DNA of 36,936 nt, taken from NCBI GenBank assembly GCA_012841575.1, contig DUUL01000012.1, positions 1 to 36,936 on the forward strand, given 5' to 3'. Origin of the DNA: Candidatus Moraniibacteriota bacterium. Lineage in GTDB: Bacteria > Patescibacteriota > Minisyncoccia > Moranbacterales > DUUL01. Below the pieces are notes generated by a model. The model had not been told where the DNA came from and made no database searches. It was given only the letters and a program-made list of their open reading frames with translations. Numbering within the stretch: the first letter of the stretch is position 1; the number at the start of each line of letters is the position of its first letter. Both the position numbers and the translations under genes were made by a program. Positions 1,786 to 25,597 of the stretch are shown here, in pieces.

Positions 1786-4128
1786 TTATTTCTCAATTAG
1801 CCCTTTCTTTTCAACCTGGTCCAATTTTATACTCAAAAGCCGAGAAACTCCATCATCACCCATAGTAACACCATATAAAAAAGATGCCTCTTGCATTGTT
1901 TGACGATTATGAGTGACTAAAATAAATTGAGTTTTCTTAGATAGTTCTCGTAGAATCCGACTAAAACGTTTTGAATTAGCCTCATCTAAAGCTGCTTCTA
2001 CCTCATCTAAAAGAGCAAATGGTGGCGGGTTATGCGCAATTACAGCAAACAATAAAGCGATTGAAGTTAGTGCTCTTTCTCCTCCGCTCAACATTCCTAA
2101 GTTGGTAATTTTTTTTCCCGGCGGAACAGCTATCACCTCAATCCCAACTTGACTTTCTTCTTCCTGAAGATTTTCGTCAGCTTCACCAGTTAAAGCATCT
2201 TTTCCAGAGCTAGTTATTTCCTCCATATTTTCATCACTGTCTGGCTCTAAATTTCGAGTAACAGATTTAATTTCTTTTTTTTCTAAGCCAGCTCTCCCAC
2301 CCCCGAAAATTATCTTAAAGTAACGCTCAAATTCTTTATTAATATATTTAAAAGTTTCCTGAAAACGCTCTTTGATTTGCATCTCTAGCTCACTTACAAC
2401 TCTTTTTAATTTCTGGATTGTCTCATTTAAGTCATCCACTTCTCTTTTTAAGAAATCATAGCGCTCAGAAGTTTCTTTATATTCTTGAATAACTGTCTCA
2501 TCAATCCCACCAATCTGTTGTAATTGTGCTTGCAAGCGACTGATTCTGATTTGTAGCTCATTTAAATTTGGAGTCTTGCCTTCGATATAACTCAACCTTG
2601 AAGGATAAGTTTTTAATTCTGTCTGAATTCGATTGCCTAACTCTTCTTCCTTTGCCTCCATTTTTGCCAACTCAATCTGAACTTCATTTAATAAGTCTCT
2701 CACCTTATCCATTTCAAATCGATCTTTTCTTAATTTATCCTCAAGTTCAATAGCCTTTTTTCTTTCTTCCCTGTCTTCTTTTACTAAATCTTGAATAGCC
2801 TTTTCGCCTTCTTTCAAACGCCTAATAAATTCACTTTTTTGTTTTTTTAGCTGTGTAATCTTATTTTCTATGGCGACTATCTTCTTTTGCACTAATTCTT
2901 TTTGCTTCTTAATTTCTTGGTCTGGCTTCTTTTTCTCTTTCTTTCCTTTAATAATCGCTCCATAAAGCTCATACACCTCTTGAGTGATTGCTCGTGCATA
3001 TTCTTTAATCTCCTGCACACTGTCACCAGGATCTAGCTCTGATATTCTGCGCACTAATTCTTCTTGTCTGATTTTAATGTCCATTAAACTATCTTTTATC
3101 ATTTCCATATTTACTGGAACTAAAATCACAGTCTCAATGCGCTTTGCTCTTTCCTTTTCCAACTCTAACTTCCCCTCCTCCAAAACTAAACTTCTTTCAA
3201 TTGAACTCAAATCATTATTTAACTTTCTCTGTTGCGCCTCTTGATCAGAGATTTTATTCTGTAGGTGAAATTTTCCTTGTGACTCCTGCCTTAAGCGCTC
3301 ACTAATTTCTTGATTGACTTTTTGTAAAGCAGTTAGTTGCTGTCTAATCTCTTTTTCTTTCTTTAACTTTAAGGCCTGCTCTTGCTTCAAAGTTTGCCAA
3401 AGATAGCCAAAGAAGATTTGTTGCTTCTCTTTTAATTCCACACGATAAAGCTCTCCTTTTTGAGCTCGATTATTTTGACGCTTCAATGTCCTTAGGTGTG
3501 GTTCAATTTCCAACAAAAGCGCTTTAACCTTTTCTAGATTTGCTAAAGCTCGATTCAATTTACGCTGACTTCTTTCTTTTTTTATTTGAAACTCCTTGAC
3601 TCCAGCTGCTTCTTCAATAATTGCCCTTCTTTCTAAAGGACTAGCCTGTAAAATTTGATCCGCCATTCCTTGGTTAATAATACAGTAGCTTCTCTGCCCA
3701 ATCCCCGCTCGTGCTAAAAAATCAACAACATCTGTCAATCGCACTTTTGAACCATTAACTAAATATTCACTTTCTCCGCTACGATAAATCTTGCGTGTCA
3801 CAACTACCTCATTAAAGTCAACTGGAATTTTTTGATTAGTATTGTCCAGAAAAATAGAAACTTGCGCCGCACTTAAGCGAGCCTTTTTCTTAGAACCGGC
3901 AAAAATAACATCTTTAGATTTCTTCCCTCTAATTGCTTTCATGGATTGCTCGCCCATCACCCAGCGCAAGGCATCAGCAACATTCGACTTTCCAGAACCA
4001 TTGGGTCCAACAATAGCTGTGATATTAGATCCTCCGCTTAGCTTCCCTTTTTTCCCACCAGAAAAATCCAAAGTTGTTTTTTGGGCAAAAGATTTGAAAC
4101 CACTAATTTCTATTTTTTTCAAAAACAT
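1786..4128 (-). CDS. smc: short, apparently hinge-less SMC chromosome-organising ATPase
   Basis: SMC ATPases extrude and organise chromosomal DNA. Both halves of the head are clear: Walker A GPNGSGKSN at 41-49, Q-loop INQG at about 151-154, ABC signature LSGGE at 680-684 and Walker B LLDEVEAALDEAN at 706-718. Coiled coil fills about 165-340 and 400-595. At 780 residues it is some 400 shorter than ordinary bacterial SMC, and I see no globular hinge between the arms, only a 60-70 residue break around 331-400 with no zinc-hook CxxC. A roughly 45-residue acidic insert (about 617-661) interrupts the C-terminal head before the PPGKK motif. It follows rnc, as in many bacteria. RecN- or RecF-like proteins are alternatives, but the head motifs and rnc neighbour favour SMC. 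Confidence 0.9.
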   Translation of the reverse strand: MFLKKIEISGFKSFAQKTTLDFSGGKKGKLSGGSNITAIVGPNGSGKSNVADALRWVMGEQSMKAIRGKKSKDVIFAGSKKKARLSAAQVSIFLDNTNQKIPVDFNEVVVTRKIYRSGESEYLVNGSKVRLTDVVDFLARAGIGQRSYCIINQGMADQILQASPLERRAIIEEAAGVKEFQIKKERSQRKLNRALANLEKVKALLLEIEPHLRTLKRQNNRAQKGELYRVELKEKQQIFFGYLWQTLKQEQALKLKKEKEIRQQLTALQKVNQEISERLRQESQGKFHLQNKISDQEAQQRKLNNDLSSIERSLVLEEGKLELEKERAKRIETVILVPVNMEMIKDSLMDIKIRQEELVRRISELDPGDSVQEIKEYARAITQEVYELYGAIIKGKKEKKKPDQEIKKQKELVQKKIVAIENKITQLKKQKSEFIRRLKEGEKAIQDLVKEDREERKKAIELEDKLRKDRFEMDKVRDLLNEVQIELAKMEAKEEELGNRIQTELKTYPSRLSYIEGKTPNLNELQIRISRLQAQLQQIGGIDETVIQEYKETSERYDFLKREVDDLNETIQKLKRVVSELEMQIKERFQETFKYINKEFERYFKIIFGGGRAGLEKKEIKSVTRNLEPDSDENMEEITSSGKDALTGEADENLQEEESQVGIEVIAVPPGKKITNLGMLSGGERALTSIALLFAVIAHNPPPFALLDEVEAALDEANSKRFSRILRELSKKTQFILVTHNRQTMQEASFLYGVTMGDDGVSRLLSIKLDQVEKKGLIEK

Positions 4129-4950: not shown

Positions 4951-5523
4951 TTATTTTTTCTCATCTAACCTTAAATCGACTTTTTCAGCTGAATCTTCAT
5001 CTTCTTTTTTATTATCTTCTTTTTCGTCATTATCAACTTTACCTAAACTTTCTTCATTCTCTCGTCGCTCCCTTCCTGCTTCAGTATTGTCATTTTTCAT
5101 AGGCTCACCCATTTCTCGGTAAACTGTTCCTAAGACACCGTTAATAAAGCGACCAGAACCGCTCCCGCCATATGCCTTTGCCAATTCAATCGCCTCATTA
5201 ATTGCAACCTTAGGCGGAGTTTCATCATAATCACCAAACATTAATTCATAAATGCCCAGCCGTAAAATATTACGATCGACAATTGTAATCTGCTCCATTG
5301 GCCACTCTGGCGCACACTTTTCAATAATTGGATCAATTACTGACTGTTTTTCCAAAACACCCTTTGTCAGTTTTTCAATAAAATCTGCTTGAATAGAGTT
5401 TGGTGCAAATTCAGCAATATTGTGCCTAATAATTTCATCGATTTGCTCATTACTAAGCTCATTAAAGTCTAATTCATAGAGACTTTGCATAGCGATAGAG
5501 CGCGATAAATGACGACTGGCCAT
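4951..5523 (-). CDS. nusB: transcription antitermination factor NusB
   Basis: NusB binds the boxA RNA of rRNA leaders with ribosomal protein S10 and keeps RNA polymerase elongating through rRNA operons. The alpha-helical domain covers residues 1-140, with the N-terminal arginine-rich helix [18 protein letters not shown], the core [14 protein letters not shown], and the closing block [17 protein letters not shown] then [10 protein letters not shown]. It carries an extra tail of about 50 highly charged, low-complexity residues (141-190, rich in E, D, K, N) beyond the usual end of the family at 130-140 residues. It lies 54 nt after rpmF and before rnc on the same strand. Confidence 0.95.
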
Positions 5524-5577
5524 AGAGAATACTTTTAAAATAATTAAAGTGCTTGGCTTTTAGCCTTATCTAATTTT

Positions 5578-5769
5578 CTATTTTTTAACCTCAACGCTTT
5601 TTTTAACCTCCTTGCCTTTGTAATATCCACAAAAAGAACACATTCGATGCATTTGTATCGCCTGATTACACTGAGAGCATTTAACTAAATTCTTTTTTTC
5701 TAATTTTCGATGACCACCTCGTCGACGCTTTCCACGAGAAGAGTTGTGTCTTTGCTTAGGGACTGCCAT
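5578..5769 (-). CDS. rpmF: 50S ribosomal protein L32
   Basis: L32 is a small zinc-binding protein of the large ribosomal subunit. The protein begins MAVPKQRHNSSRGKRRRGG, typical of the family, and has a zinc ribbon made of two CxxC pairs (CSQC, then CSFC about 14 residues later). The length of 63 residues is normal. It is the first protein gene after tRNA-Leu and is probably transcribed from the promoter at 6021..6049. The complete cysteine set suggests the zinc-containing form. Confidence 0.96.
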   Translation of the reverse strand: MAVPKQRHNSSRGKRRRGGHRKLEKKNLVKCSQCNQAIQMHRMCSFCGYYKGKEVKKSVEVKK

Positions 5770-6261: not shown

Positions 6262-6600
6262 ATGTTACGCTATCTACTTGCTATTCCTATTGCTTTATCA
6301 TTTCTGATTACTTTATATCAAACTGTTTCAGGCAACTGGCTTTATTTTTTTCTTTGGCTTTTTGTAACTGTTGCTCTGGCACTAGCCTTGATTCCAGTAA
6401 TCAAAAAAGACACTGATGATAGAGTGGTTCCCGTTATTCAAATTTTTGTCCTCTTGTTCTTCTTCCCAATAATCATGATGATTATTGCTTATTTTGACTT
6501 TGAAAGGTTAGCTTTGGGACCAGGTGCAACTCTGTTTTATTCTATCCTCTCTGGCTTTGGCGTCTTAGCCTTAATCATGATTCTAAAGGGAGAAAAATAA
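6262..6600 (+). CDS. small four-helix membrane protein of unknown function
   Basis: I do not recognise this family. The 112-residue protein is almost entirely hydrophobic, with predicted membrane helices at about 5-22, 27-46, 57-77 and 89-108, and a short charged loop (KKDTDDR) between helices 2 and 3. There are no catalytic-looking conserved residues. It has its own promoter and is read alone on the plus strand, facing the minus-strand operons on either side. Its 3' end lies only 14 nt before the -35 box of the candidate small RNA at 6649. Confidence 0.75.
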   Translation: MLRYLLAIPIALSFLITLYQTVSGNWLYFFLWLFVTVALALALIPVIKKDTDDRVVPVIQIFVLLFFFPIIMMIIAYFDFERLALGPGATLFYSILSGFGVLALIMILKGEK

Positions 6601-6614
6601 AATTATCTAAACCC

Positions 6615-6642
6615 TTGACAGTACCTGAAAAGTGTTTATAAT
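6615..6642 (+). promoter_or_regulatory. near-perfect consensus promoter for the small RNA
   Basis: TTGACA (6615-6620) is followed after 16 nt by TATAAT (6637-6642); a second overlapping TATAAT is at 6642-6647. Both boxes match the sigma70 consensus completely, the best promoter in the window. No ORF follows it on the plus strand, only a structured region and a terminator. Confidence 0.85.
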
Positions 6643-6648
6643 ATAATC

Positions 6649-6777
6649 ATTGGTAAATAAAGATTTTTGCCTGTTGCGAGGCGCGTCCTCCATCCTTGCT
6701 GTTTTCAATTCTCCTCCTTTTCCAGCAAAATAAACGCGCCTCGCACTTTTCTATAACTCCCATCTGGGAGTTTTTTA
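6649..6777 (+). ncRNA. candidate structured small RNA with exposed anti-SD motifs
   Basis: A transcript from the consensus promoter would start near 6649 and end at the terminator at 6755-6777, giving about 130 nt. A perfect 12-bp GC-rich stem is formed by TGCGAGGCGCGT (6675-6686) and ACGCGCCTCGCA (6734-6745). Inside it TTGCTG (6696-6701) pairs with CAGCAA (6723-6728), capped by a 21-nt pyrimidine-rich loop. The loop contains CCTCCTTT (6713-6720), the same as the 3'-terminal anti-SD tail of 16S rRNA. A second CCTCC (6687-6691) is unpaired in the internal bulge. It lacks SRP RNA, tmRNA and RNase P hallmarks, and is short for 6S RNA. No protein frame of interest lies on this strand. Promoter, structure and terminator are seen directly; the function is unknown. 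Confidence 0.72.
6755..6777 (+). terminator. intrinsic terminator of the small RNA
   Basis: AACTCCC (6755-6761) and GGGAGTT (6766-6772) form a 7-bp stem with a 4-nt ATCT loop, running directly into a T-tract. The minus strand has no T-tract on the far side, so this works in the plus direction only. Confidence 0.85.
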
Positions 6778-6793
6778 TTTGATAATATAACAA

Positions 6794-8062
6794 CTAACAA
6801 CAATGCAACTGATCTGGAGTCTCATCGGAATCTTTTTGTCCAAAGGGATTACCGGTGCTTTTAGTCTTATCAATCATTTTAATGTTCTGCTCTGTTTGCA
6901 GTTCTTCTATTTCTTGTTGCTCACGAATCTTTCGCACGTAACCATCTAATGGGATCTTCATCGGACAATTAAAACTGCACGTCTCACAAAGAGTACAATT
7001 GAAACTGCCCCCCGCTCTTGCCTTCACTAAAGAAGCTTCCCCCAATTTAGCTGCCATTACAATTCCCTTTGAACCAGCAAATTTTCCTCCGAATTTTTTT
7101 CCCATTTGATGATAAACTGGACAAAAATTTAAACACGCTCCGCAACTTATGCACTGATTCATTTTCTCAAATCCCTCTTTCATCATTTTTCTGCGTCCAT
7201 TGTCTAACAAAATAATCATTACCTCCTGCGCTCCCTGTGCTCCCTGAACTAACTGATTTTCAATATCAGCTGTCTTAGATGGACCAGCAATCACTGAAAT
7301 ATACTGCGGTTGATCCTGACCAGTGCCAAAAATTGCTGCTGCTTGACAAAGCTCGGTGGCATCTTGCACTGACTCTACTAATTTATCAATTCCACAAATA
7401 ATTAAATGCTTACGTGGCAGACGGGTAATTAAAGATATATTCCCCTCATTCTCAAGCAAAATAACTTCTCCGGTTTTAGTAAAAAAATTAGCTCCCGTAA
7501 TTCCAGCATCCGCTTGTAAAATTTCCTCCCTAATTTTTCTTGACAAATAGCGAGTAATCGCTTCTGGATCTGATTCAACCTCTTCACCATAATACTCTTT
7601 AATTCTCTTTGCAATTTCAGTGCTGTCTAGGTGTAATGCTGGTAAAACATAGTGTTGATCTTCCGCCTTCAATAAGTCAACTACAAAATCACCTAAGTCA
7701 GTTGAATGCAATTTCTTTCCTTTGCTTGCTAAAATATCTTCAAGATTAATCTCTTGACCAGTGTTAGTTTTTGACTTGACTAGATTATTGCAATCTACTA
7801 AAAACTCTTCAATTTTACTACTAGCCATTTGCTCATCAAGCGCTTCAAAAACCTGGAAACCATGGGCTTTTAAGTTTCTCTTAGCCACTTCTAAATTATT
7901 CTCAAAATCAACAAAGGTACCTGCTCTCTTCTTAGACATTTTCTCTCTATAATCATCTTTACTTAAACCAAGTCTGGCTAATGCCTTACGTCGCTTGACT
8001 CCATATTTATGCGCCACCTCTTTAATTGATCTTTTCGCACCTTGACTTAAAAAATTATCCAT
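6794..8062 (-). CDS. LutB-like iron-sulfur protein (LUD domain plus two 4Fe-4S motifs)
   Basis: This resembles LutB of the LutABC complex, which oxidises L-lactate to pyruvate. The LUD domain spans about 55-300, including GITGANFFTKTGEVILLENE (187-206) and LPRKHLIICGI. Two four-cysteine motifs follow: C304/C307/C310/C314 (CISCGACLNFCP) and C356/C359/C362/C366 (CTLCETCSFNCP), each expected to bind a 4Fe-4S cluster. A GNPFG segment at 404-408 recalls the linker found in fused GlcF/HdrD-type proteins, and the chain ends in Cys-Cys. The matching Cys-rich CCG subunit is encoded at 9643, three genes upstream on the same strand. No LutC is visible. Lactate is the likeliest substrate by family, but this is not proven here. 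Confidence 0.82.
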   Translation of the reverse strand: MDNFLSQGAKRSIKEVAHKYGVKRRKALARLGLSKDDYREKMSKKRAGTFVDFENNLEVAKRNLKAHGFQVFEALDEQMASSKIEEFLVDCNNLVKSKTNTGQEINLEDILASKGKKLHSTDLGDFVVDLLKAEDQHYVLPALHLDSTEIAKRIKEYYGEEVESDPEAITRYLSRKIREEILQADAGITGANFFTKTGEVILLENEGNISLITRLPRKHLIICGIDKLVESVQDATELCQAAAIFGTGQDQPQYISVIAGPSKTADIENQLVQGAQGAQEVMIILLDNGRRKMMKEGFEKMNQCISCGACLNFCPVYHQMGKKFGGKFAGSKGIVMAAKLGEASLVKARAGGSFNCTLCETCSFNCPMKIPLDGYVRKIREQQEIEELQTEQNIKMIDKTKSTGNPFGQKDSDETPDQLHCC

Positions 8063-22929: not shown

Positions 22930-25597
22930 GAAAAAAAATCTTCCCAAAACTTACGAACCTTGGAAATATGAAGATAAAATTTACCGACGCTGGGAAAGGT
23001 CAGGTGCCTTTAATCCTGACAAACTAGTCTCCGCAGAAAAATCTTCATACTATTCAATTGCCATGCCTCCTCCTAATGTTACTGGCGTTTTGCACCTAGG
23101 GCATGCTCTGGAGAACTCCATCATGGATATCCAAACCCGTTTTCAACGAATGCAAGGCAAAAAAGTTCTACTTGTTCCAGGAACTGATCATGCTGCAGTA
23201 GCAACCCAAGCTAAAGTTGAAAAGGAATTAGTTAAGGAGGGTATTAAAAATCCCCGAGAACAATTAGGCAGGAAGGAGCTGCTAAAAAGAGTGCGTCAAT
23301 ATTCCGAACAATCAAAGAAAACAATCATCAGTCAAATTAAGAAAATGGGGACTAGTTGTGACTGGAGCCGCCTTGCCTACACCCTTGACAAAGAAAGATC
23401 TGAAGCAGTTAATGAAGTATTTGTCAAAATGTTCAAAGACGGATTAATTGAAAAAGACTACCGTGTTATTAATTGGTCAGTTAAGGGGCAATCTACTTGC
23501 TCAGATGATGAATTGGAGCATCGAGAAGAAAAAACTACTCTTTATACTTTTAAATACTCTAAGGACTTTCCTATTGCAATTTCAACCACCCGACCAGAAA
23601 CCAAACTGGGAGACACTGCTGTGGCTGTTCATCCTAAAGACAAGCGCTATAAAAAATACATTGGCAAAACCTTCACCGTTGATGTTGGTGCTAAAAGCCC
23701 TTTGAAAATAAAGGTTATTGCCGACCGAGAGGTAGATCCAGACTTTGGCACTGGTGCTTTGGGTGTTACCCCCGCTCATAGCCAAATCGACTTTGAAATG
23801 AAAGAAAAAAACAACCTAGATCTTATTGCAGTTATTGGAAAAAACGGAAAGATGAATGAAAATGCCGGAAAAGAATACACTGGATTAACCATTAAGCAGG
23901 CACGAAAAAAATTTGTAACATGGCTAAAAAATCAATCTTTACTGGAAAAGGAAGAGCTAATCACTCACAATGTCAGCACCTCAGACCGATTTGGTGACAT
24001 CATTGAACCCTTGCCAATGGAGCAATGGTTTGTTCGAGTGAATAAAGAAATTCCTGGACATAATGGGAAAACTCTCAAGGACTTAATGAAGGAAGCGGTC
24101 ACTGTAGGTCATAACGGGGATAGGAGCAAAAAAATTATCATCACTCCTAATCGTTTCATCGATCAGTATTTACACTGGATTGATAATTTGCGCGATTGGT
24201 GCATTTCTCGCCAAATTTGGTGGGGTCATCAAATTCCAGTTTGGTATGATGGCACAAAAATTTACTGCAACACCGAGCCGCCCTCAGGCAAAAAGTGGCA
24301 ACGCGACCCCGACACTCTAGATACTTGGTTTTCTTCTGGTCTTTGGACTTTTTCAACATTAGGTTGGCCTCAAAAAACTAATGATTTTAAAAAATACCAT
24401 CCAACAAGCTGGATGCAAATGGGCTATGAAATTTTGTTCTTCTGGATGGCAAGAATGATTCTGATGAGCACTTACACTCTAAATGAAATTCCCTTTCAAG
24501 AAGTTTACATTCATGGAATTCTTAGAGATAAAACTGGTAGAAAGTTTTCCAAATCACTAGGCAATGGAATTGATCCAATTGATATGATTAAAAAATACGG
24601 CACTGATGCTCTACGTCTCGGATTAATTTCTGGAATTGCGCCTGGCAATGATTCTCGCTTTTTTGAAGAAAAGCTGGAAGGCACTCGCAATCTAGTTAAT
24701 AAAATTTGGAATATTAGTCGCTACATCCTAGAAAATCAATCAACATCTTCGCCACAATCCTTAAGCAAAATAAAGCCTGAAGAGTTGACTTCGGCGGACT
24801 TATTTATCCTGAAAAAAATGATGCGCCTCATTGAGAGCACCAATCAACAGCTAGAAAAATGTGATTTTTCAGGTGCTAGTGATCAGCTAAGAGACTTCAC
24901 CTGGAATGAGCTGGCCGACTGGTATTTAGAAATAAGTAAATTTGAGGATAATAAAAAAGTTAAAACTGCTATCCTCTTTACCGTACTAAAGGATCTATTA
25001 AAACTCTGGCACCCCTTTATGCCCTTTGTAACAGAAGAAGTATGGAGTAAATTCAACGATTCACTCTTAATAACAGAAAAATATCCTCGTAAAAATAGCT
25101 ATTCAAAAATAATTAAAAAAGCTAGAAGAACTCATGATTTTGACTTAATTAAAGATTTAATCGTGGCTATTCGCAATATTAGAGCGGAGTATAAAATCCC
25201 TCCCGCAAAAAAAATTAAAGCTATCATATACGGACATTCTCTAGTAAATGCAATTAAATCTGAAGTAGAGCTAATCAAAAAATTACGCACTGGGATTGAA
25301 GAATTAACAATCGAAAAATCTGGACCAAAAATAAAGCGGGCTGCTTTTGCCTCGGTTAATGAAATAGAGATCTATATCCCTTTAGCCGAACTTATTGATT
25401 TTAAAAAAGAAACAGCACGTGCTAAAAAGGAATTGGCTAATTATGAAAACTTTAGTAAGCAACTAAAAAACAAATTGTCCAATAAACAATTCACCAAAAA
25501 TGCTCCTAAGGAAATTGTCGCCAGGGAAAAAGAGCGACTGGAAGTGACTTTAAAAAATATTAAAAAAATAAAAACCTACCTTAAAAGCATTGCCTAA
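22928..25597 (+). CDS. valS: valyl-tRNA synthetase
   Basis: ValS charges tRNA-Val. Class I signatures are present: the HIGH-type motif HLGH at 56-59 in PPPNVTGVLHLGH, and the KMSKS-type motif KFSKS at 539-543. The editing domain lies between them, with STTRPETKLGDTAV, and the DWCISRQIWWGHQIP block before the second motif is typical. The tRNA-binding domain and a C-terminal coiled coil (about 820-889, K/E-rich) close the protein. The length of 889 is normal. The start is fixed by the N-terminal LPKTYEP motif, typical of ValS. No SD motif precedes it; the start codon lies in a stable hairpin. Its 3' end overlaps the next gene by 8 nt. Confidence 0.96.
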   Translation: MKKNLPKTYEPWKYEDKIYRRWERSGAFNPDKLVSAEKSSYYSIAMPPPNVTGVLHLGHALENSIMDIQTRFQRMQGKKVLLVPGTDHAAVATQAKVEKELVKEGIKNPREQLGRKELLKRVRQYSEQSKKTIISQIKKMGTSCDWSRLAYTLDKERSEAVNEVFVKMFKDGLIEKDYRVINWSVKGQSTCSDDELEHREEKTTLYTFKYSKDFPIAISTTRPETKLGDTAVAVHPKDKRYKKYIGKTFTVDVGAKSPLKIKVIADREVDPDFGTGALGVTPAHSQIDFEMKEKNNLDLIAVIGKNGKMNENAGKEYTGLTIKQARKKFVTWLKNQSLLEKEELITHNVSTSDRFGDIIEPLPMEQWFVRVNKEIPGHNGKTLKDLMKEAVTVGHNGDRSKKIIITPNRFIDQYLHWIDNLRDWCISRQIWWGHQIPVWYDGTKIYCNTEPPSGKKWQRDPDTLDTWFSSGLWTFSTLGWPQKTNDFKKYHPTSWMQMGYEILFFWMARMILMSTYTLNEIPFQEVYIHGILRDKTGRKFSKSLGNGIDPIDMIKKYGTDALRLGLISGIAPGNDSRFFEEKLEGTRNLVNKIWNISRYILENQSTSSPQSLSKIKPEELTSADLFILKKMMRLIESTNQQLEKCDFSGASDQLRDFTWNELADWYLEISKFEDNKKVKTAILFTVLKDLLKLWHPFMPFVTEEVWSKFNDSLLITEKYPRKNSYSKIIKKARRTHDFDLIKDLIVAIRNIRAEYKIPPAKKIKAIIYGHSLVNAIKSEVELIKKLRTGIEELTIEKSGPKIKRAAFASVNEIEIYIPLAELIDFKKETARAKKELANYENFSKQLKNKLSNKQFTKNAPKEIVAREKERLEVTLKNIKKIKTYLKSIA

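Follow-up and report, generated by a model that had tools for sequence, protein, structure and literature searches.

The rhizobial small RNA (sRNA) NfeR1, whose loops carry an anti-SD sequence, blocks the ribosome-binding site of its targets and does so independently of Hfq (PMC10746234). In the alpha-r14 RNAs, three hairpins each present CCUCCUCCC; these RNAs are conserved across the Rhizobiales and their targets are proven (PMC10746234, PMC3927594). RNAIII, CyaR and AbcR1 hold a partial anti-SD motif in a loop, and there it binds the ribosome-binding site of the target (PMC3927594). In searching the literature we found no comparable report of an anti-SD-loop RNA for the group of bacteria considered here, and nothing about regulatory sRNAs in bacteria of the candidate phyla.

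The locus that we compare with these systems lies in a window of 36,936 nucleotides (the whole stretch of DNA analysed, to which the positions below refer), which is contig C100 of a genome (G000) of the Moraniibacteriota type within the Patescibacteria, approximately 1.0 Mb long and assembled in 131 contigs, of which about 790 kb are readable and the rest is masked as N. A sequence-only reading of the window had proposed that a strong promoter there drives an RNA that exposes the anti-SD sequence of 16S rRNA. The features of the locus are these:

6262-6600, plus strand: upstream neighbour, a gene for a 112-aa membrane protein, whose homologues occupy the equivalent position in three relatives without the RNA
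6615-6642, plus strand: sigma70-type promoter, with a perfect -35 TTGACA (6615-6620), a perfect -10 TATAAT (6637-6642) and a spacer of 16
6649-6777, plus strand: inferred transcript of about 129 nt, starting some 7 nt past the -10 and ending in the T-tract of the terminator
6652-6671, plus strand: weak, AU-rich 5' hairpin of 6 bp, from folding
6675-6745, plus strand: main hairpin, with a GC-rich outer stem of 12 bp (6675-6686/6734-6745) and an inner stem of 6 bp (6696-6701/6723-6728)
6687-6695, plus strand: 5' side of the internal loop, CCUCCAUCC, with the first unpaired CCUCC at 6687-6691
6702-6722, plus strand: pyrimidine-rich apical loop of 21 nt, UUUUCAAUUCUCCUCCUUUUC, the proposed seed, with CCUCCUUU at 6713-6720
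6755-6777, plus strand: intrinsic terminator, with a 7-bp stem (AACTCCC/GGGAGTT), a tetraloop and a T-tract
6794-8062, minus strand: convergent neighbour, a gene for a LUD-domain/4Fe-4S protein (LutB-like)

The promoter is the sole perfect match to TTGACA-N16-TATAAT in the window, where shuffled sequences give 0.02, and the transcript of approximately 129 nt is deduced from its position and that of the terminator, the stem of which (6755-6772) is followed by TTTTATTT. The outer stem of the main hairpin is perfectly paired and is separated from the inner stem by an internal loop of 9 nt on the 5' side (6687-6695) and 5 nt opposite, while the apical loop contains CUCCUCCUUUU. The minimum free energy of the RNA is -42.9 kcal/mol, compared with -20.9 +/- 3.2 for shuffled sequences (z = -6.9), none of 200 shuffles being as stable, and in computed folding both copies of CCUCC (6687-6691 and within 6713-6720) have an unpaired probability of 0.95-1.0. 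Reading frames across the RNA are limited to TTG-started frames of 27-29 codons, none of which is a real ORF. All of the anatomy first described, namely a promoter without an ORF, stems of 12 and 6 bp, a 21-nt loop, a terminator and a second CCUCC left unpaired in the bulge, is therefore present.

Perfect promoters of this type number 11 in the readable genome of about 790 kb, against approximately 0.4 expected when the shuffle rate of the window is scaled up, which indicates that such sites are real promoters in this genome. A scan for a strong promoter followed within about 260 nt by a terminator, with no overlapping gene, gave 18 hits with the window RNA at the top; its recovery of one tRNA and one T-box-like leader provides an internal positive control, and the window RNA was the only candidate that contained any CCTCC. 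Given this anatomy, and a scan that recovers its controls, a noncoding RNA gene is likely, and we consider the feature very probably a real RNA encoded by a stand-alone sRNA gene.

The same scan and the set of perfect promoters drew attention to other loci. The T-box-like leader (G000:C18, plus strand from about 2905; locus L065), GGTGGAACCGCGG, was recognised by its motif alone. On the minus strand of G000:C106, a perfect TTGACA-N16-TATAAT at 25529 (locus L187, about 5450-5730) precedes a second orphan RNA candidate, a structured noncoding stretch of about 155 nt with a terminator hairpin at its end, which had no match in Rfam even at E 1. A further perfect promoter, on the minus strand of G000:C116 from 241 (locus L163) and near the contig end, precedes a sequence with stem potential (CGGTTG...CAACCG); the candidate transcript had no credible match in Rfam.

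The 16S rRNA of the assembly (contig C22) has the 3' end GGATCACCTCCTTTCT, in which the anti-SD is intact, and CCUCCUUU in the apical loop is identical to this tail over 8 nt. The claim that the loop repeats the 16S tail, which had been made of bacteria in general, is thus confirmed against the rRNA of the assembly itself. Among dinucleotide shuffles of the RNA, 2.2% contain two copies of CCUCC and 2.0% contain CCTCCTTT; among intergenic windows of 128 nt the corresponding figures are 1.2% and 1.0%. A chance of 1-2%, before allowing for the many other motifs that might have been noticed, is suggestive and not overwhelming. Throughout the window CCTCC is strongly biased by strand (77 on the plus strand, 5 on the minus), mirroring the purine-rich coding strands of genes that lie mostly on the minus strand.

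Use of SD sites is scarce in this genome, as the sequence-only reading had supposed from the window. With the first ATG taken as the start, GGAG or GAGG is found at -18 to -4 in 42 of 609 genes; the peak is narrow and lies at -10, where there are 15 occurrences of GGAG against approximately 0-5 at most other positions, and by our estimate the genes that really rely on an SD number about 25 (4%). On large contigs such sites are rarer still (C36 has 2 among 91 genes, the window 1 among 29). Contamination of the bin may account for some small contigs rich in SD sites, C22 perhaps among them.

Homologues of the RNA were sought at several phylogenetic distances. Rfam offered no credible family at gathering or at permissive thresholds, and blastn matches in 57 relatives were judged, with their flanks, to be due to chance. 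A covariance model built from the single sequence (self-score 138 bits), run against 113 genomes of the order and 384 of the class (about 480 in all), gave no credible homologue. Its best order-level match (22.7 bits) is a tRNA gene with a terminator, and the others resemble coding sequence or a bare terminator; the best class-level match had an E-value of 7e-4 per genome, where about 0.3 such matches are expected over the set of 384, and at the match sites in five class-level genomes that were followed up there was no DNA similarity, and the double-CTCC pattern was missing. A search of 131 order-level genomes for the promoter together with CTCCTY returned 13 matches against 2 for a control, none of them in the family and none recognisably homologous, and plasmids, phages and viral contigs contained no match to the RNA.

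The gap itself tells a similar story. The relatives that carry the LUD protein bear the names Patescibacteria and Candidatus Moraniibacteriota, and a search for it across genome contigs returned the same relatives and distant ones, with no new close locus. The same convergent gene pair is found in three relatives (G009, G003 and G007). The gap measures 70, 2 and 167 bp in them, respectively, against 193 bp in G000, and in none of the three does it hold the RNA. In G007 (locus L034, about 1331-1497) a long AT-rich inverted repeat stands in place of the RNA, and the content of the gap therefore appears to change between genera.

With no homologue in the searched genomes, the loop has no support from covariation or from conservation of its motif. 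It had been said at the outset that a lack of conservation of the stem or the CCUCC loops in close relatives would count against the proposal, and at the distance of genera this is what the covariance searches found. The nearest relatives compared are, however, other genera of the same family, such that absence demonstrates lineage restriction rather than a lack of function, and with the flanking LUD protein at only about 50% identity the signal could also have been lost through divergence. On these comparisons the RNA is, so far as we can judge, an orphan that belongs to this genus or species alone.

We propose a model, to which we would give an even chance, in which the RNA is a young, lineage-specific and Hfq-independent sRNA that acts in trans, using C/U-rich seeds to occlude SD sites. 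The consensus promoter would produce an RNA of about 129 nt, ended by its own terminator, in which the GC-rich stem would keep both the 21-nt C/U-rich loop and the C/U-rich bulge open. The loop would then pair in trans with purine-rich SD sites of the AAAAGGAGGAGAA type, thereby blocking the binding of ribosomes. Hfq was not found in the genome, part of whose assembly is masked, and for this reason we propose that the RNA would act without it. Because few genes possess such SD sites, the regulon would be small.

When, in a prediction of targets, the loop was paired with 644 start regions the mean duplex energy was -6.3 kcal/mol, compared with -6.4 to -6.9 for shuffled loops; pairing was weaker at start regions than in coding sequence; and exact complementary matches of at least 10 nt numbered 17 against 16 for a sense-sequence control. 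With no excess over shuffled loops or the control, targeting of start regions across the genome is unsupported. On C19 and C94, exact matches upstream of genes (14 and 11 nt, respectively) were rejected, since each falls at the 3' end of the gene before (...GGE-stop) and outside SD position. A small set of SD-led genes remains, and the top candidate target among them is a strongly promoted gene for a 99-aa membrane protein (G000:C107, minus strand, ATG at 3503; locus L154), which is preceded by TTGACA-N17-TATAAT, a 50-nt stretch and then AAAAGGAGGAGAAAATG. Here the loop is predicted to form 13 consecutive pairs with AAAAGGAGGAGAA, across the SD, at -20.9 kcal/mol, while the 16S tail reaches -12.9 at the same site; but this match is partly tautological, since any good SD will match any anti-SD, and it is not independent proof. 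The suggestion that the RNA masks mRNAs with an SD thus retains one strong candidate pairing, with no enrichment over shuffled loops across the genome.

Other explanations must account for the same structure. An abundant, structured RNA might bind a protein instead of mRNAs with its C/U-rich loops, serving as decoy or scaffold for a partner such as Rho, S1 or a KH protein. A 21-nt loop made up almost wholly of pyrimidines, which a very stable stem keeps open, is consistent with this, as is the lack of base-pairing enrichment at start regions, but no cold-shock-domain protein was found in the genome and no particular partner is indicated, and we think such a role improbable. We would place slightly above it, though still as unlikely, a young transcript with no selected function in trans, acting at most as local antisense to LUD mRNA. 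The RNA is restricted to its lineage, the motif has a chance of 1-2%, and the RNA lies between convergent genes in a gap with no clear minus-strand terminator after the LUD gene, so that LUD mRNA may extend across it. Against this, a perfect promoter and a perfect, GC-rich 12-bp stem would be hard to maintain without selection in a contig of 36% GC, and the relatives do without any such element in gaps of 2-167 bp.

A diverged housekeeping RNA that Rfam had missed is very unlikely. Neither 6S RNA nor small SRP RNA was detected elsewhere in the genome (for the latter there was no hit at E 0.001, part of the assembly being masked), and Rfam detected 6S RNA in none of 57 genomes from the order; moreover, the transcript is promoter-driven and resembles 6S RNA (RF00013) in being a single rod-like RNA with a strong promoter. 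Yet it is much shorter, it matches neither the 6S family nor small SRP RNA (RF00169) at E up to 10, the long 6S rod and the SRP tetraloop domain are both missing, the apical loop being one of 21 nt and rich in pyrimidines, and an RNA with a housekeeping role would be expected in relatives as well, whereas the relatives searched lack it. Most improbable of all, by a small step, is a short leaderless peptide gene of 27-29 codons with a TTG start. Frames are open at 6650-6733, 6667-6756 and 6696-6782, and initiation without an SD dominates in this genome, but none of these frames has an ATG or is conserved, they cross the GC-rich 12-bp stem, and such lengths are common by chance.

What stands of the original proposal, therefore, is the anatomy of an sRNA gene exposing an anti-SD and the scarcity of SD use around it; conservation and an excess of pairing, which might have spoken for a regulatory role, are both wanting. 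If an sRNA that occludes SD sites in trans is nonetheless the correct reading, it would show that a genome of about 1 Mb can exert post-transcriptional control without the help of Hfq, and it would provide a reason why a few genes retain an SD in a lineage that otherwise initiates without one. Our broadest conjecture, which we think rather unlikely to hold, is that in an Hfq-less, SD-poor lineage of Patescibacteria a new sRNA bearing a copy of the 16S anti-SD could become a switch for the remaining SD-led genes, such that SD use itself would mark a regulon. The few SD-led genes of G000 merit study as a group.

In comparison with known RNAs, the closest likeness is to alpha-r14 (NfeR1/SmelA075, RF02344): an anti-SD in a hairpin loop of a small, trans-encoded and Hfq-independent RNA, although action without Hfq and blocking of the ribosome-binding site are proposed here. 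The window RNA differs in having one main hairpin with two different CCUCC sites, in loop and bulge, a candidate rather than a proven target, and no homologue in the genomes searched. Its covariance score against RF02344 is 11.8 bits (E 3.8), far below the gathering cut-off of 58.8, and in place of three CCUCCUCCC hairpins it has a single one with CUCCUCCUUUU in the loop and CCUCCAUCC in the bulge; it consequently falls outside alpha-r14. Nor was any relationship in sequence or structure to RNAIII, CyaR or AbcR1 detected, and while the hosts of those RNAs use SD sites widely, this genome hardly uses them. Trans-acting anti-SD sRNAs form a mechanistic class rather than one of homology, and two features of that class are found at this locus, an independent promoter and terminator without an ORF and an anti-SD held unpaired. 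RNAs with anti-SD loops are already known, and the window RNA, although it shows no sign of common descent with them, would be of the same kind in its proposed function.
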